Source: Sphingobacteriia bacterium
GTDB taxonomy: Bacteria; Bacteroidota; Bacteroidia; UBA7662
DNA length: 34,426 bases
Reading direction: 5' to 3'
Assembly: GCA_009927485.1 (NCBI GenBank)
Contig: RFMW01000235.1
Location: 1-34,426, forward strand
Part shown: positions 16,287-30,911 of the stretch, piece by piece
How positions within the stretch are numbered: the stretch's first letter is position 1
How the letters are laid out: each line of letters starts with the position of its first letter
The notes under the pieces: model-generated
What the model was told of the DNA's origin: nothing
What the model saw: the letters and a program-made list of their open reading frames with translations, nothing else
Database searches by the model: none
Translations under genes and position numbers: made by a program

Positions 16287-18143
16287 TTATGGTCGGTAGG
16301 AACCGTTCACATCCCCGGTCGCCAAAACCTTGATCAGAAGATTAGGATGTCCAATGTTGGTCAGTGGGACCGGAGTTGAATGGTAAACCCAATCTCCTGC
16401 CGCAAAAGAACTGATAGAACCGGAATATCGAAGGGCGATGTTGAGTGCATCATTCGCATTGATAGCTCCGTTTGCATTAACATCAGCCGCAAGGATTGCC
16501 AATCCTTGCAGTGGCTGTACCTGAGCAAAATGCAAAGCAACCGCTAATGCGTCTGATGCATTGAGGCCTCCATGGCTCTGTCGAATCACTGGTGTGCATG
16601 CGTAGTTACCGGGCAATAAACCGTAAAACCCAAATCGTCCTTGATTGCTTAACGCAGTATCATTTAGCCAACGGTTATTTTGGCGAAGCATGACTTTGCC
16701 ATTGGTCATGGGATCCAGGGTTGAATTATCGTAGCAAATTTGGCCTCGTAATTGCAAAGGCCCTTGCAGGTCAAGACTATCTTGGTAAATACGGATATAA
16801 TCAATTTGTAAACTGTCCGCTTGAAATTGTGATGCAGATCCGTTGAGCATGGCTACATTGAAGAGCAAATATTGAGGGGCATCAAAGGGCCAATTATTTG
16901 AGTTTCTTGGGTTGGGTTGGTACGTATACAGGGTTTGCCCATTAATGGAAAACGTAAGGCGGTTGGGTTGCCAGTCCAAGCTGTAAATCTGAAATTGTTG
17001 TCCCGCACCAGGGATTCTTCGGGTTGCTGTATGGATGGTTGCCCCAAAGCTTGAAGGGGTGTGGATGCTGCTATGAATGAATTCAGGATTACTGCCCCAA
17101 TGTTCCATAATGTCGATTTCACCGCAAGCAGGCCATACGCTGCTCGCGTATCCTTGCTGTTCCCAGTAGGCTCCAGGTTCTTGTACATTCCGCCCAAGCA
17201 TCCAAATTGCGGGCCAAGTTCCGGCGGACATCGGAATTCGGGCTCTGCATTCTATTCGTCCGTACCGAAAACTAAATTTGGAGTTGAGTCTCGCCGAGGT
17301 AAAAGCCTTGGTGATTCCTTGTTGGGTAAATTGTTCTCTTCGGACAACCAAGTTGAGCGTTCCGTCCTTCACATAGGCATTGCGCGGCTGATTCGTATAA
17401 TGTTGGATTTCGTTGTTGTACCAACTCGTTCCGTTAGGAAGAAGGGTTTGTGCAAACCATTTGTTGGTATCAATCGGCCCATTCGCTTCAAATTCATCGC
17501 TCCATACGAGGGTGTTTGAGGTGTTGGTATAGCCTAGGGTATCGTACACAAAATCGTCCAGGTATGCCAAGACTTGATCGTTGTTATTCTCCCCGTTGAT
17601 CTGTAAAACAACCCGATTGAAGTCGTTTCGATTCAAGGGTGACCCTGAGTTTGGGTTGAGATTGATCCAGGGATCTCTCCGAAAGTCGAATTGAACTTCT
17701 TGCCATTGGTTGAGGCCCAGTGGCTGGATGATTTCACATTGGGTGCTCCAGGGTGTGGCTGATCCGTTGTTTTGGAGTTTAAGGGAAATTCGGGGCGTTT
17801 GATTGCCCGTTGTCCCATTGGATGGGATATAGATCTTGAGTCTGAATCTCGAATGAATATTCAAAGGAAAATTACCCGGAATATCAAAACGCACGTTGGC
17901 GTATTGACCTCCTTGGTCATGGTATCGAAGGACATTCGCTGAAGGGTTTACCGCGTTGGGATTGGGGTTAGTGAAAGGCCTTTGCAGGGTGCATTGGTCT
18001 GCATACCAGGTGTTGATTGTGCCGTTTCCCTCGAAGGAATCCCCCACCGCAGGCAGCGATTGCCCGCTAATTCCTTGAGTATAAGCGAAGAATTGGTATG
18101 CACAAAGGATGCCCAATCTTTTGAATCCCTTTGTGGACGCCAT
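16287..18143 (-). CDS. GH16 glucanase (laminarinase-like) with N-terminal jelly-roll domain and dockerin-like C terminus
   Basis: A secreted glycoside hydrolase of 618 residues, counted from the ATG at 18143; a TTG 18 bases upstream is a less likely start. A signal peptide covers about 1-28. Residues about 30-205 form a carbohydrate-binding, jelly-roll-like domain ending AYLDDFVYD. The GH16 catalytic domain (about 215-455) begins LVWSDEFE and carries the catalytic motif GEIDIMEHWG with Glu342 (nucleophile), Asp344 and Glu347 (acid/base). Laminarin (beta-1,3-glucan) is the most likely substrate from the motif and WPAIWML segment. The last 150 residues match the dockerin-like module of the large T9SS protein, but the protein stops at GDVNGSYRP with no T9SS sorting domain. 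It follows a DUF1566 gene by 14 bases. Confidence 0.9.
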   Translation of the reverse strand: MASTKGFKRLGILCAYQFFAYTQGISGQSLPAVGDSFEGNGTINTWYADQCTLQRPFTNPNPNAVNPSANVLRYHDQGGQYANVRFDIPGNFPLNIHSRFRLKIYIPSNGTTGNQTPRISLKLQNNGSATPWSTQCEIIQPLGLNQWQEVQFDFRRDPWINLNPNSGSPLNRNDFNRVVLQINGENNNDQVLAYLDDFVYDTLGYTNTSNTLVWSDEFEANGPIDTNKWFAQTLLPNGTSWYNNEIQHYTNQPRNAYVKDGTLNLVVRREQFTQQGITKAFTSARLNSKFSFRYGRIECRARIPMSAGTWPAIWMLGRNVQEPGAYWEQQGYASSVWPACGEIDIMEHWGSNPEFIHSSIHTPSSFGATIHTATRRIPGAGQQFQIYSLDWQPNRLTFSINGQTLYTYQPNPRNSNNWPFDAPQYLLFNVAMLNGSASQFQADSLQIDYIRIYQDSLDLQGPLQLRGQICYDNSTLDPMTNGKVMLRQNNRWLNDTALSNQGRFGFYGLLPGNYACTPVIRQSHGGLNASDALAVALHFAQVQPLQGLAILAADVNANGAINANDALNIALRYSGSISSFAAGDWVYHSTPVPLTNIGHPNLLIKVLATGDVNGSYRP

Positions 18144-18157
18144 GGTTGTTATGGTTA

Positions 18158-18652
18158 TCAAAGGGTGCGCACTGGCCTAACCTTGATGGGCATGAGTTTG
18201 CGTGTTGGGTAAGCATACCCATCGAGGAAGTACATGACCCAAGCATTGGTTGCATCCACTTCTTGGCCGCTCCAATAGCCCATACCGTAAAAATTACCTC
18301 GACCTTGCAGGTGCAATTGCGTATACATGGCTTCCAATTCACCTTTGGTTGGAAGTCGCCAACCCTTACCTAACTGATTACACATTGTTTGCGCTTCCTT
18401 CCAATGGACTCTTGTTGGGAGATCCTCATCAGCTACCACAATGCGCTGCCCCTTAATGTGAATGATTAATCCTGATTGGGGTAAGGTATCTGTTGTTAAT
18501 GAATCATTCTTGTCTTGAGAAGGCCAAGGCAGGTCTGCGCGATGACTTGCAGCAAATCCGTAAAGGGTAGGGCATATCAACAAAAAAAATACCCCAACCA
18601 TCCAAACATTTCCGCAAATCAACTGAGTTTGATAAGGTTTGTTGAGTTGCAT
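18158..18652 (-). CDS. Exported DUF1566-type protein, unknown function
   Basis: A 164-residue protein with an N-terminal signal or membrane segment (about 12-36), a short linker and a C-terminal DUF1566-type domain (about 80-164) recognised from VHWKEAQTMCNQLGKGWRLPTK, the YWSGQE segment and the closing VRPVRTL. Such domains occur in surface proteins of many bacteria, with no known activity. It lies directly upstream of the GH16 gene on the same strand with 14 bases between them, so the two are probably co-transcribed and may act together at the surface. No promoter consensus is obvious ahead of it. Confidence 0.8.
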   Translation of the reverse strand: MQLNKPYQTQLICGNVWMVGVFFLLICPTLYGFAASHRADLPWPSQDKNDSLTTDTLPQSGLIIHIKGQRIVVADEDLPTRVHWKEAQTMCNQLGKGWRLPTKGELEAMYTQLHLQGRGNFYGMGYWSGQEVDATNAWVMYFLDGYAYPTRKLMPIKVRPVRTL

Positions 18653-18715
18653 TGTGCTGTGGAGGTGTTCGTGGTTTTTGTATGATTTGGGTAATACCCC
18701 CTGATACTGTTGTCG

Positions 18716-18789
18716 CGGTCCCGTAGGGATTCGAACCCCAAACCTTCTGATCCGTAGTCAGATGCTCTATCCAATTGAGCTACGGAACC
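18716..18789 (-). tRNA. tRNA-Arg (anticodon ACG)
   Basis: On the minus strand the 74 bases fold into a cloverleaf: acceptor GGTTCCG with CGGGACC, anticodon stem TCTGA/TCAGA with loop CTACGGA giving anticodon ACG, and T arm GGTTCGAATCC. The terminal CCA is not encoded. The ACG anticodon, after A34 to inosine editing, reads CGU, CGC and CGA. Confidence 0.95.
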
Positions 18790-18808: not shown

Positions 18809-18942
18809 CATCTTTGGCCATGGAGAGCAGGCTTTTTGAGGTGATTTGGAATGTTTTTTCTTAAATGCTAAAAAAAACAGAAAAACCAATTAATTTAGCG
18901 TTCGTTACGGTGACCAACATAAACTCATTTAAACCGAAGACC

Positions 18943-19743
18943 ATGACCTATTTGGCATTGAATATGCGTTGGAAGCGCAAGAGTTTGGGATGGACCCAGG
19001 AAGAATTGGCAGAACGCTTGGGGGTGGGGCGATCGGTGATTGGTTCTTACGAAGAGGGTCGGGCGGAGCCCAGAAATGCAGTTCTTATGGCCTTGGCACG
19101 CTTATTTGATTGCACGATCGAGGATCTTTTGCAGGCTGATGGAGAGGCAGGGCAGTGGGGGCCTTCGCTTACGTCCAGGGTATCCGGGGATTCATTGCGG
19201 ATATTGACCGTGGGTGTGGAGGATTCTGGGGGCAAGGAACAGATTAGTTTGGTGCCCGAGCAGGCGGCTGCAGGGTATTTGCAGGGGCATCGTGATGCGG
19301 ATTATGTGGCTCGCCTCCCGGCCTTTCGTCTTCCTGTTCCGGAGTTGAGTTCCGAGAGAACGTACAGGTTGTTTCAAATCAAAGGGGATAGCATGCTCCC
19401 TGTTCCGGATGGATCGTACGTTGTCGCTGAATTTGCAGCGGATTGGCGCAGTATTCGTGCAGGTCAATGTGCTGTGGTTTTGTCTCGTGGCGAGGGTCTT
19501 GTCTACAAACGTATTTATCCGGCGTTGGGCGATGGGTATCTTGAGCTAAGGTCGGATCACCCGGCGTACAAACCTTACAGGATATCGTTGGATCAGGTGA
19601 TGGAAATGTGGAAAGTGTTAGGGTATTTATCCTTCCGACTCCCCGATGCTCATGGGGAGAGCGTGAATGATTCGACGATGTGGCCCCGGCTTCAGTCGTT
19701 GGCGACAGAGTTACAGGGCCTTGTCTATCAAATGAAAGGATAG
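18943..19743 (+). CDS. XRE-S24 (LexA-like) self-cleaving transcription regulator
   Basis: A 266-residue protein with an XRE helix-turn-helix at about 10-65 (LGWTQEELAERLGVGRSVIGSYEEG) and a peptidase S24 domain (about 100-230). The catalytic dyad is visible as Ser150 (IKGDSMLPV) and Lys189 (VYKRIY); the likely self-cleavage bond is Ala110-Gly111 in EQAAAGYLQG, by analogy with LexA and UmuD. It would repress genes until DNA damage triggers cleavage through RecA filaments. The next two genes in the same direction encode mutagenic polymerases, its obvious targets. The ATG in front of TYLALNMRWKR is chosen; the frame is open 78 bases further up but that part looks non-coding. No LexA-type operator was confidently found in the upstream region. 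Confidence 0.88.
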   Translation: MTYLALNMRWKRKSLGWTQEELAERLGVGRSVIGSYEEGRAEPRNAVLMALARLFDCTIEDLLQADGEAGQWGPSLTSRVSGDSLRILTVGVEDSGGKEQISLVPEQAAAGYLQGHRDADYVARLPAFRLPVPELSSERTYRLFQIKGDSMLPVPDGSYVVAEFAADWRSIRAGQCAVVLSRGEGLVYKRIYPALGDGYLELRSDHPAYKPYRISLDQVMEMWKVLGYLSFRLPDAHGESVNDSTMWPRLQSLATELQGLVYQMKG

Positions 19744-19814
19744 CGGTAAGGGTAGTTCACCGCAGGCGATACCGAACAGGGGAGGTCGTTTGCGGGATTG
19801 CAGAGAAGATTTGT

Positions 19815-22814
19815 ATGTATTTGCAGGTTCATAGTTGGTTCAGTTTGGGGTACGGTCTCCATGCCCCCGAGTACTTACTGAAGCAGGCTTCTCGTTTTGG
19901 CTGGGATACCATGGTTTTGACGGATATTAACAGCACGGCCGGTGTTGCGGAATGGATGCGTTTGGCTCCTCGATACGGGATTCGAGCCTTGGCCGGGTTG
20001 GATTGCCGTAGCGGATGCCAGCGCCGGTACGTATTGATTGCCCGGAATCATGAAGGGTATAAGGAGTTGTGCAGGCGTCTAACGGAATACTTGTGCGATG
20101 GGATTGATTGGCCTCTACCGGCGTTGCCTCATCCGGACCTTTGGGTGATTTACGGAGCAAAGCAGGCTCCGGGTCATCGCCTTCGAGAGGGGGAGAGGAT
20201 TGGCTTGTCCTCCAGGGAATTGCATCGGTATCCTGAGTGGGTTAACCGGGTAGGGGCTTCACGCTTGTTGGCAATGCAAACGGCAACTTTGATGGACGCT
20301 GCAGATTGGGATCTTCATCGGGTTCTTCGAGCGATTCATCATAACGTTTTGTTATCCAAATTGCAAGAGGCACACGATCTGGCCATGCCTACGGATTGCA
20401 TGCAATCATCCGAGCAGGTATTCGCTGATTTCGAGGGTTATACGGAACTTTTGTACCGTAGCGCAGCCCTGCTCGATGTTTGCCGTCTTCATTTTGAAAT
20501 CGGGCCGCAGTATCCGCACAAGAACCTGTCTCGTTATACGGGGCATGAGGATCTTGATTATCGTTTGCTTTGTTATCTTGCCCATAAGGGTATTTCAAGC
20601 CGTTACGGCAATCCACCCACGGGTTTGGAGGATCGCTTGCACAAAGAGTTAAGCATTATCCGTCAGAAGCGCTATGTGGCTTATTTTCTGATTAACTGGA
20701 AGATTCTCAAGTATGCCAGAGCATCGGATTTTTTTTATGTGGGCAGAGGGAGTGGCGCCAACAGTCTTGTGGCGTATCTGCTCTTCATTACCGATGTAGA
20801 TCCCTTGGACTTGGACTTGTACTTTGAGCGTTTTATTAATTTATACCGTCGTAATCCCCCTGATTTTGATTTGGACTTCTCTTGGCAGGACCGAGACGAG
20901 GTATTGCGTTACGTTTTTCGCAGATTTCCGAATGTCGCCTTGTTAGGCACCCATGTTTGTTATCGTCATCGTTCTGCCGTTCGGGAACTGTGCAAGGTGA
21001 TGGGGATTCCACGGGAGGAGAGTGATCGTCTTGCCTCGATAAGAGGGGGTCATCAGCAGGCTGAGGATAGCCTGGGTAGGATGATTGAGGATTATGCAAG
21101 GCGTATGCAGGATATGCCGGCTCATCACAGCATTCATGCCGGTGGGGTTTTGATTACAGATCAGTCTGTGTTGAATTATACGGCATGTTTTCGACCGCCC
21201 AAGGGTTTTCCAACCGCTATGATGGATATGCACGATGCGGAAGATTTGGGCTTTCACAAATTTGATTTGTTGAGTCAGCGTGGCTTGGCCAAAATCAAGG
21301 ACACCTTGCGGGGTTTGGGGCCCGTACGGCAAAGAGCGTTAACCCAAATTCTCAGAGATACTCCTCGGCTGAAGCGTAATGCCCGGGTTATTCAAATGCT
21401 TTCGCAGAGTGCGAGTGTTGGGTGTTTTTACATAGAATCACCGGCGATGCGCATGCTTTTGACCAAGCTCAGGGTTAGGGATTATCTGGGATTGGTCGCC
21501 GCGAGTTCCGTGATCCGCCCCGGAGTTTCTTCTTCGGGCATGATGCGGGTTTATATCGAAAGGGAGCGATGTCCTTCGAAGCGCAGGGAGGCGCCGGAGG
21601 CTTTGAGTAAATTGTTATCGGAAACACACGGTGTGATGATTTACCAAGAAGATGTGATACGGGTGGCTCATTTTTTTGGGGGCTTAAGCCTTGCGCAGTC
21701 GGATGTCTTGCGACGTTCCATGAGCGGCAAGCACAGAGGTCTTACGGAATTGCAGAATCTGGAACATGATTTTATGGTGAAGGCTACGGCACAAGGCCAT
21801 GATGCCGCTCTGGTCCAGGAACTGTGGAGGCAAATTGCGGGTTTTGCCGGGTATGCTTTTGCCAAAGGTCATTCGGCATCGTATGCGGTCGAAAGCTATC
21901 AATGCCTGTATCTCAAAGCCTATGCTCCGTTGGCGTATATGGTTTCGGTGCTGAACAACGGGGGGGGATTCTACAGTACAGAGGAATACCTTCAGGAAGC
22001 GGTGAGGCTGGGTGCTAAGGCCGAAGGACCTTGTGTGAACCGCAGTGGGGACTCTTTTGTGTTGGATGGAAAATCCATTTGGGTGGGATTGCGATGGATT
22101 AACGGTTTGGAGGAGAGGAGTATAACGAATATTCTGGAGTCCAGGTGTCAGGGCGGACCTTTTGTTGCTGTGGAGGATTTTTGCCGACGTACCGGTTTGG
22201 GCAAGGAACAGACCTTGTTGTTATGGCGGGTTGGGGCGTTACGATCGTTGTCCTCGTCCAGAACCTCGGCCCTGTGGAGTGTGCGACTTTATTACGGTGG
22301 GGTTTCGCCCTCGTTGGTCCATGCTCCAAGCATGGCCTTGTTCAAGGAAATGCCTTTGCAGCCATGGGGTGAGACCCAGGGCATGGGGTCTGTACCGCAT
22401 GCCGGTATTCGACAAGCGTACGATGAGATGGAATTGTTAGGGTTTACGCTTACGGATCCTTTTGCCTTGGTGGATCAGGGTACTTTTGGCCCACCTCGTT
22501 CGATGAGTGAACAAGCAGGTGCTGTTCCATCGGAGGTGATTCTGGACGTCTATGCGGTGCACATGCGTACGGTTCGCACCGTCAGGGGTGATCGTATGGC
22601 TTTTGGTTGTTGGAGAGACCCTCAGGGGGCTTGGGTGGATACGGTTCATTTTCCTCCGCAGCTCAGGGATTACCCGTGGAAAGGCAAGGGAGTTTACCGT
22701 ATTAGCGGAATTCTTCGCGAGGAATACGACTACCGTTATGTGGAGGTGAGCGCTATGCATAAACGTGCGTTCTTGTCCGTTGAGGCTTCTTTGGAGGGGC
22801 ATTCATTCTCTTGA
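19815..22814 (+). CDS. dnaE2: DnaE2-like error-prone DNA polymerase III alpha subunit
   Basis: A 999-residue C-family polymerase, short like DnaE2/ImuC rather than replicative DnaE. It has an N-terminal PHP domain (about 1-220) whose first His of the usual HVHS motif is Gln (LQVHSWFS). The palm's catalytic Asp residues are probably Asp352 and Asp354 (PDFDLDF) and Asp484 (KFDLLS), all kept. A fingers/HhH region (GYAFAKGHSASYAVESYQ) and a C-terminal OB domain (about 905-985) follow. The ATG before YLQVHSW is used: an alternative GTG at 19680 would overlap the S24 gene and add residues with no family resemblance. The gene begins 71 bases after the S24 regulator and ends 1 base before the Y-family polymerase, forming an operon. 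It likely carries out translesion synthesis. Confidence 0.9.
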   Translation: MYLQVHSWFSLGYGLHAPEYLLKQASRFGWDTMVLTDINSTAGVAEWMRLAPRYGIRALAGLDCRSGCQRRYVLIARNHEGYKELCRRLTEYLCDGIDWPLPALPHPDLWVIYGAKQAPGHRLREGERIGLSSRELHRYPEWVNRVGASRLLAMQTATLMDAADWDLHRVLRAIHHNVLLSKLQEAHDLAMPTDCMQSSEQVFADFEGYTELLYRSAALLDVCRLHFEIGPQYPHKNLSRYTGHEDLDYRLLCYLAHKGISSRYGNPPTGLEDRLHKELSIIRQKRYVAYFLINWKILKYARASDFFYVGRGSGANSLVAYLLFITDVDPLDLDLYFERFINLYRRNPPDFDLDFSWQDRDEVLRYVFRRFPNVALLGTHVCYRHRSAVRELCKVMGIPREESDRLASIRGGHQQAEDSLGRMIEDYARRMQDMPAHHSIHAGGVLITDQSVLNYTACFRPPKGFPTAMMDMHDAEDLGFHKFDLLSQRGLAKIKDTLRGLGPVRQRALTQILRDTPRLKRNARVIQMLSQSASVGCFYIESPAMRMLLTKLRVRDYLGLVAASSVIRPGVSSSGMMRVYIERERCPSKRREAPEALSKLLSETHGVMIYQEDVIRVAHFFGGLSLAQSDVLRRSMSGKHRGLTELQNLEHDFMVKATAQGHDAALVQELWRQIAGFAGYAFAKGHSASYAVESYQCLYLKAYAPLAYMVSVLNNGGGFYSTEEYLQEAVRLGAKAEGPCVNRSGDSFVLDGKSIWVGLRWINGLEERSITNILESRCQGGPFVAVEDFCRRTGLGKEQTLLLWRVGALRSLSSSRTSALWSVRLYYGGVSPSLVHAPSMALFKEMPLQPWGETQGMGSVPHAGIRQAYDEMELLGFTLTDPFALVDQGTFGPPRSMSEQAGAVPSEVILDVYAVHMRTVRTVRGDRMAFGCWRDPQGAWVDTVHFPPQLRDYPWKGKGVYRISGILREEYDYRYVEVSAMHKRAFLSVEASLEGHSFS

Positions 22815-22815
22815 T

Positions 22816-24036
22816 ATGCGGAGCCAAGATTTCAGTCAAGACCCGGGGCATATTCCGCCCATGAATGCCGATCCAGGGGGGTATGCTTTTGGCGAAAATC
22901 GTTGCGTCTTGCATCTTGATTTGGATACGTTTTTTGTTTCGGTCGAAAGGCTCATGGATAGCCGGCTTTGTGGTAAACCTTTGTTGATTGGTGGAGGAGG
23001 GGACAGGGCTGTGGTGTCTTCGTGCAGTTACGAAGCAAGGTCCATGGGGGTTTCATCGGGAATGCCGGTACGTATGGCAATGAAATTATGCCCTGAAGCA
23101 GTGCTGGTCAGGGGTCATGCCGATCAGTACAGCGAATACAGCAGAGCGGTGACTTCGTTGATGCAAGAATCGCTTCCTATGCTGGAGAAGGCATCCGTGG
23201 ATGAGTTTTACGCGGATTTGAGCGGAATGGATAAGTACCTGGGATGCTGGCGCTGGGCTAGCGAAATTCGCAATCGTGTAGCGCGTGAAATTGGCCTACC
23301 TTCTTCGTTGGGGCTTTCGGTAAATAAAACAGTTTCCAAAATCGCCACGGGTCAGGCCAAACCCGACAATCAGCAATGCGTGATTAGCGGAAACGAAGCG
23401 AGTTATCTGGCGCCGTTACCGGTTCGCAAAATCCCAATGGTCGGGCCGGTTTGGTCCAACCAACTCGAAGAGCTTGGGCTTGGTCGTATTTATTTGTTGC
23501 AACAAATCCCAAAGGATTATCTCGTACGGCTTTTTGGGAAGAACGGGATGACGCTTTGGGAAAAAGCGAGGGGGATTGACCCCAGTCCTGTGATTCCGTA
23601 CCGGGAACAAAAGTCCATTTCATCCGAACGAACTTTTGAACAGGATACCGCAGATCCTGCCTTGCTTAGAGCTCGTATTCGCTCTTTGGCTGAGGGGCTG
23701 GGAACGGAGCTAAGATCGCAGGGGATGGTTTGCGGTTGCGTGGCCCTGCGGATTCGCTACGCGGACTTCGAAACGGTAAGCCGACAGCAAACCCTGCCTT
23801 ATACGGCTTCGGATCGGGTTTTGATGGATACGGCAGTGGAATTGTTGCACAAACTCTATACCCGGAGAATGAGGGTACGTTTGGTAGGCGTTCGTTTGAG
23901 CGAATTAAGCCATGCAGGCAGTCAAATGGACTTGTTTGCTGATTATTCCCGCGAAGATGCCTTGTACCGTGTGCTCGATCGAATGAAGGATCGATACGGT
24001 CGCCATTCACTGCGTTGGGCAGGTGGAATGGGTTAA
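22816..24036 (+). CDS. dinB: Y-family DNA polymerase (DinB/Pol IV-like), catalytically intact
   Basis: A 406-residue translesion polymerase. The catalytic acids are present: Asp35 (HLDLDTFF, E. coli DinB D8) and Asp129-Glu130 (SVDEFYAD, DinB D103-E104). The little-finger region ends with a clamp-binding motif QMDLF at 370-374. The ATG follows the dnaE2 stop by 1 base, so translational coupling is likely. In classical imuA-imuB-dnaE2 cassettes the Y-family partner ImuB has lost its catalytic residues; here they are kept, so this is a different arrangement with two potentially active polymerases. Met16 (22861) is a possible later start, as the first residues are not conserved-looking. Pol IV and UmuC-like relatives cannot be told apart with certainty. 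Confidence 0.92.
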   Translation: MRSQDFSQDPGHIPPMNADPGGYAFGENRCVLHLDLDTFFVSVERLMDSRLCGKPLLIGGGGDRAVVSSCSYEARSMGVSSGMPVRMAMKLCPEAVLVRGHADQYSEYSRAVTSLMQESLPMLEKASVDEFYADLSGMDKYLGCWRWASEIRNRVAREIGLPSSLGLSVNKTVSKIATGQAKPDNQQCVISGNEASYLAPLPVRKIPMVGPVWSNQLEELGLGRIYLLQQIPKDYLVRLFGKNGMTLWEKARGIDPSPVIPYREQKSISSERTFEQDTADPALLRARIRSLAEGLGTELRSQGMVCGCVALRIRYADFETVSRQQTLPYTASDRVLMDTAVELLHKLYTRRMRVRLVGVRLSELSHAGSQMDLFADYSREDALYRVLDRMKDRYGRHSLRWAGGMG

Positions 24037-30497: not shown

Positions 30498-30545
30498 ATC
30501 ATTCTTGGCATGGGGCCTGTTCCAAAAACAGATACCCCCGGGTTG

Positions 30546-30911
30546 TGGAGCTGCAGGGAGTTGAACCCTGGTCCAGTCAAGCCGATCCCCGACTTTCTAC
30601 ATGCTTATCCATCCCTTGATTTTCGACGGGATCCAGGCGGGCGGCGGGCCGAAGATCACGCTTAGGCTTTAGGGTTCTCGTTCCTTGGTCAAGCCTGCCT
30701 TAGAACCAGTTCAATGTGGTCGATGCCTCCATAGGACAGGCCATTGAGCTCACCTGTCCGGAGACAACTCTTGCTAATTCCTAGAATTAAGCAGCGAGTG
30801 CGTAGTCGTAGTTGCCGTTTAAGGCTTGAACCATCGGATTAACGAGCAACGGTTCCAGGCTCGGCATGCTTACCGGGTCATCTAAACAAGCTGTCGATTC
30901 CGTTCAGCCCC
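30546..30911 (-). ncRNA. ssrA: Transfer-messenger RNA (tmRNA)
   Basis: One-piece tmRNA of about 366 bases. The 5' end GGGGCTGAACGGAATCGAC pairs with the 3' end CAGCTCC through GGGGCTG, and the 3' half has the T-arm GGTTCAACTCC. A tag reading frame near 30787-30830 ends in NGNYDYALAA and TAA; YALAA is the usual degradation signal. The resume codon is one of the few codons before NGNYDYALAA and cannot be fixed by eye. The CCA end is not encoded. It rescues stalled ribosomes and tags unfinished proteins. Its promoter starts just 6 bases upstream of the 5' end. Confidence 0.96.

Follow-up and report, generated by a model that had tools for sequence, protein, structure and literature searches.

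The window analysed here is a 34,426-nucleotide contig (C165) from a Sphingobacteriia bacterium assembly of 1.94 Mb, 251 contigs and 97% completeness. Its central part carries three genes that are collinear on the + strand: an S24/HTH repressor gene (18943..19743, 266 aa), a gene for a DnaE2-type C-family DNA polymerase (19815..22814, 999 aa) and a gene for a Y-family DNA polymerase, similar to the PolY2 of Bacteroidota (22816..24036, 406 aa). A single base separates the stop of dnaE (22814) from the start of polY (22816), just as a first-pass annotation, made by reading the sequence unaided, had described it. For the S24 gene an alternative in-frame ATG exists upstream, at 18865; the start is nevertheless likely to be 18943, because a relative (G005) has an in-frame stop directly before the equivalent position and because the operators described below lie between both candidate starts. 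The operon is immediately preceded by a - strand gene for tRNA-Arg (ACG) at 18715-18789, some 80 bp away from the first operator, and the same tRNA sequence is found upstream in G005.

The S24 protein combines an HTH_3 domain (2e-16) with a Peptidase_S24 domain (1e-6) according to Pfam, a search in which the winged HTH of LexA (LexA_DNA_bind) was not found in this protein. The predicted cleavage site, Ala110-Gly111, is encoded at 19270-19275 on the + strand, and the Ser150-Lys189 dyad at 19390-19392 and 19507-19509 on the same strand. Conservation of these residues is nearly complete: Gly111, Ser150 and Lys189 are present in all 62 family sequences and Ala110 in 61 of them, which bears out the earlier description of a regulator with its own HTH, catalytic dyad and Ala-Gly site. 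In the predicted structure, the N-terminal domain resembles P22 c2 and is thus phage-repressor-like, or CI-like (TMt 0.87-0.90), and the C-terminal domain resembles that of LexA (TMt up to 0.72); the linker that holds the cleavage site is modelled with low confidence, and the model has an extra C-terminal helix (243-265). S24 repressors with CI-like N-domains have been reported to run the SOS response of Bacteroidetes through either CTAA-N5-TTAG or GGA-N5-TCC operators (Sanchez-Osuna et al. 2021, PMC8565304). With its CI-type multi-helical HTH joined to an S24 domain, its Ala-Gly scissile bond, its Ser-Lys dyad and its C-terminal extra helix, the protein is, by sequence and model, a member of this non-canonical LexA family of Bacteroidota SOS regulators, in which it matches the CTAA-N5-TTAG group. 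Self-cleavage of the repressor is likely.

The second gene product has Pfam matches to the PHP, DNA_pol3_alpha, finger and HHH domains. NCBIfam models for DnaE1 and for error-prone DnaE score it at 429 and 425 bits, both under their cut-off and with no separation between the two types, and a small tree was therefore built. In this tree the protein is split from the DnaE1 of its own genome and from that of E. coli at 100%, and falls into a Bacteroidota clade with other Bacteroidota DnaE2, apart from the ImuA-linked DnaE2 (DnaE2A) of Agrobacterium, Chelativorans and Burkholderia. By this placement, it is clearly a DnaE2-type enzyme and not DnaE1. Its catalytic residues Asp350, Asp352 and Asp484 correspond in alignment to D401, D403 and D555 of E. 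coli and are kept wherever covered among 40 aligned sequences; a candidate clamp motif, MALF, is found at residues 840-843.

The Y-family protein has IMS and IMS_C matches in Pfam, and its Asp35, Asp129 and Glu130 align to D8, D103 and E104 of E. coli DinB. Its clamp-binding motif, QMDLF (residues 370-374; 23923..23937, + strand), is aligned with Q-x-x-L/I/M-F in relatives. Both the catalytic acids and the clamp motif had been noted at first reading, and both polymerases of the operon apparently are active, as had also been proposed, judging from the alignment of their catalytic residues with those of E. coli. Close to its end, PolY carries a motif, SREDALYRVLDRMKDRYGRHSLRWAGG (23947..24027, + strand), which is the PolY window that best matches the N-terminus of the RecA encoded in the same genome. 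The score of this match was reached by 44 of 5000 shuffles, a modest result for the PolY of the window taken alone, and the motif is aligned and conserved in the PolY relatives that were read. In most of these (L070-L076, L102-L111), the motif is followed by a conserved tail, TIGRxNPFNGEPPxLLANR or variants of it, with which PolY may contact DnaE2 or some other partner; this tail is missing in the genus of the window (G000, G003, G004, G005, G007), which in the window concerns positions 24028-24036.

The genome encodes one S24 protein, one Y-family polymerase, one RecA and two C-family polymerases, namely DnaE1 and the DnaE2 of the window, and an ImuA model matches only recA in it, far below the cut-off. 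Given these single copies and the ImuA result, canonical LexA, UmuD, ImuA and ImuB were scored as not found in this 97%-complete genome. An ImuA-ImuB-DnaE2 system would have ImuA present and ImuB catalytically dead, and the window genome offers neither. The first-pass annotation had placed the repressor "instead of ImuA", a description that appears misleading: since PolY carries the RecA-N-terminus-like motif, it is RecA that probably takes the place of ImuA.

Upstream of the S24 gene we find two tandem sites of the CTAA-N5-TTAG type on the + strand, which answers the earlier suggestion to look for an operator at this place. Operator 1, CTAAAAAAAACAG (18868..18880), is a decayed form with two mismatches, and operator 2, CCAATTAATTTAG (18886..18898), has one mismatch and starts 18 bp after operator 1. 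The stretch 18868-18898 aligns in the same register with exact or near-exact sites in relatives (G004, G005, G011, G013 and G057), with an exact copy of one of these sites in each of G011, G013 and G057, and the start-to-start distance is constant at 17-18 bp in the family alignment. Such a fixed-register pair was seen in six genomes (G000, G004, G005, G011, G013 and G057), where 0-2 of 500 composition shuffles reach the score; in most of genus g2, the pair is decayed, weaker than that of the window, and its score does not exceed nearly all of the shuffles. More generally, 14 of the 62 regions upstream of S24 genes contain an exact CTAA-N5-TTAG, usually no more than about 50 bp from the start; the expected number is 0.26. 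The alternative motif, GGA-N5-TCC, used by another group of Bacteroidota, was not seen by eye upstream of the S24 gene.

For the double-site pattern, the pair at 18868-18898 is the sole zero-mismatch match in its own genome, and other matches need two mismatches, which is control level. Exact single CTAA-N5-TTAG sites occur at four places, against 69 for a reversed control pattern, and no recognised repair gene was found at any of the four; one of these sites, which precedes a SPOR-like ORF after secA by 28 bp, was taken as chance. With the relaxed form CYAA-N5-TTAG, matches are scattered over dozens of places, a number that does not exceed the control. CTAA-N5-TTAG is also under-represented in G011, G013 and G057 (20-30 versus 55-159), perhaps through a general avoidance of such words. 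As regards recA, no site of this type was found before the gene in eight genomes of the family, and in one genome of another family (G059) an exact site lies at -71 of recA. As recA lacks such a site, the SOS regulon looks contracted in the family of the window. The contraction appears so from sequence, and single degenerate sites may lie elsewhere in the genome.

Of 119 related genomes, mostly from one class, 92 contain a match to the S24 protein, and DnaE2 orthologs are likewise widespread in related genomes. A near-identical operon is present on a record labelled 'Bacteroidota bacterium', a scan of close-relative contigs having returned two loci. Within the family, all ten genomes with a readable contig (G000, G003, G004, G005, G009, G011, G012, G013, G014 and G016) have S24, DnaE2 and PolY in this order on a single strand, a count that includes G003 although its S24 gene is cut by the contig end, and these operons show graded divergence. 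With orthologous operons in nine further genomes of the family, the operon is not a chance arrangement. Among the genomes compared, this collinear order is seen in the family of the window only: a genome of another family (G057) has the order S24-PolY-DnaE2, and the typical arrangement in the rest of the class is a divergent S24 gene. PolY is its direct neighbour on the opposite strand at 12 loci that were read, and match coordinates from about 19 genomes put DnaE2 on the opposite strand at a distance of no more than about 4 kb. The S24 and DnaE2 genes of many other genomes lie on separate contigs. One member of the family (G010, locus L108) has DnaE2 and PolY and no S24 match in a search of its whole genome; its polymerases may therefore be unregulated or under another repressor.

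A more distant instance is found in a cultured member of the phylum, Emticicia oligotrophica, where an S24 gene whose product is 26% identical to that of the window stands divergent from dinB-dnaE on plasmid pEMTOL01 (L194). The exact CTAA-N5-TTAG is absent from the intergenic region between its S24 and dinB genes. Since pEMTOL01 is a conjugative plasmid, the S24/dinB-dnaE module can be mobile; on the plasmid it adjoins a gene for an SOS response-associated peptidase and ArdA.

Most components of this system have published counterparts. The S24 regulators of Bacteroidetes bind CTAA-N5-TTAG, their regulons are induced by mitomycin C and include dinB-dnaE operons, the regulator gene of Elizabethkingia adjoins an error-prone polymerase gene on the opposite strand, and some clades have small regulons with diverged motifs (PMC8565304). 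The window shares with this group the operator type, the control of error-prone polymerases and an autoregulation that we infer from sequence; it differs in that its S24 gene opens the polymerase operon as first cistron, whereas the published regulators stand alone or divergent, in its two tandem and partly decayed operators, and in a recA that lacks a site throughout the family genomes examined. As for the polymerases, a pair made of PolY2 and DnaE2, two apparently active enzymes, was described in Bacteroidetes without ImuA, and lexA was often included in the surveyed PolY/DnaE2/ImuB-C operons (Timinskas and Venclovas 2019, PMC6511836); a survey of 2026 named this pairing DnaE2B-PolY-RecA (PMC12926913). 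Like this putative mutasome of Bacteroidetes (Cellulophaga algicola, PMC6511836; survey, PMC12926913), the window encodes together a DnaE2 and a Y-family polymerase, both predicted from residues to be active, in a genome where ImuA and ImuB were not found, with a RecA-NT motif in PolY; it differs from it in having DnaE2 before PolY and in the loss, in its genus, of the PolY tail after the RecA-NT motif.

Two other systems have a comparable logic. In Pseudomonas putida, the repressor gene of lexA2-imuA-imuB-dnaE2 (lexA2-imuABC) heads the dnaE2 operon (PMC5261740), and a self-cleaving, damage-responsive repressor is thus cotranscribed with the DnaE2 mutasome that it controls, an arrangement also predicted for the window; there, however, the repressor is a canonical LexA accompanied by ImuA and a dead ImuB, in contrast to the CI-like S24 protein and active-looking PolY found here without ImuA. 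Self-contained S24 units have been discussed for FddR of Francisella (PMC13148647), which together with HdiR and UmuDAb (PMC13148647, PMC8565304) represents S24 repressors derived from phages or from UmuD that govern small self-contained damage regulons, sometimes including dinB; these belong to other lineages, have other operators and were not reported with DnaE2. The regulator, the operator type, the polymerase pair and the regulatory logic are thus all described already, and the novelty that the first-pass annotation saw in the module does not survive comparison with this literature (PMC8565304, PMC6511836, PMC12926913). What is new is that one family has the genes in collinear order, together with the tandem operators, their drift and a probable contraction of the regulon.

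We consider that the locus is an SOS-type mutagenesis operon of Bacteroidota under its own non-canonical LexA-family repressor, yielding a DnaE2B-PolY-RecA translesion complex, and assign this reading a probability of about 0.87. The S24 repressor would bind the two tandem upstream operators and keep its own operon off. Upon DNA damage, RecA filaments formed on single-stranded DNA would cause the repressor to cut itself at Ala110-Gly111 by means of the Ser150/Lys189 dyad, after which DnaE2 and PolY would be produced together. PolY would attach to the sliding clamp, use its RecA-like tail to bind a RecA filament at its end, and join DnaE2 in a translesion complex of the DnaE2B-PolY-RecA type; once repressor was restored, the operon would be shut off. 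In the family, this regulon would have shrunk towards one operon. The functional guess of the first reading, a self-regulated mutagenesis module, was in this respect a good one, with self-cleavage likely and with operator binding and induction predicted.

In its strong form, that first reading would make the locus a LexA-independent, self-contained mutasome that follows a new regulatory logic of its own and has no relation to the phylum's SOS response. The absence of canonical LexA, UmuD and ImuA from the gene inventory, a repressor that sits inside the operon and the lack of an operator before recA in the family would all agree with it. In a functional sense, "LexA-independent" is nonetheless unsupported: the S24 protein is related to published Bacteroidota SOS regulators, with which it shares operator type and cleavage residues (PMC8565304), and the polymerase pairing was itself already published (PMC6511836, PMC12926913), so that we hold complete independence to be improbable. 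Less probable again is the remnant of a phage or plasmid, in which a prophage repressor would sit beside captured polymerases and serve no host stress operon. The CI-like HTH, the tRNA-Arg gene immediately upstream and the similar module on the Emticicia plasmid would suit such a remnant, but the same operon recurs with graded divergence in ten genomes of the family, and the flanking genes with identified domains are ordinary chromosomal ones (rhodanese, AlaDh/PNT and GH16), with no phage genes recognised beside the operon. As the operon is conserved across the family, a prophage origin was rejected. That the S24 protein might be an ordinary, non-cleaving repressor answering another signal seems the least credible of the three: the published work did not include a non-cleavable mutant (PMC8565304), yet the Ala-Gly, Ser and Lys residues are near-invariant in the 62 sequences.

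The operon overturns no present views; it is real and largely ordinary, and probably inducible by DNA damage. Its contribution is a Bacteroidota SOS mutagenesis module in compact, collinear form, with its tandem operators mapped, in a genome where no other S24 protein, no other Y-family polymerase and no ImuA was found, and this makes it a clean subject for the question of RecA in place of ImuA and for the shrinkage of LexA-type regulons. On the latter point, we offer tentatively, at somewhat less than even odds, the view that the SOS regulon of this family has contracted to a single operon, with a non-canonical LexA as the first cistron of its polymerases, with recA and other targets lost, and with operators drifting away from CTAA-N5-TTAG under the control of one site pair. 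Such a contracted regulon would be a natural minimal circuit of damage mutagenesis and a snapshot of operator drift. Elsewhere in the window, we noted a tmRNA gene on the - strand (30545-30911) with the tag GNYDYALAA, and a putative secreted GH16 glycosidase (16287-18161, - strand) with a weak dockerin-like region.
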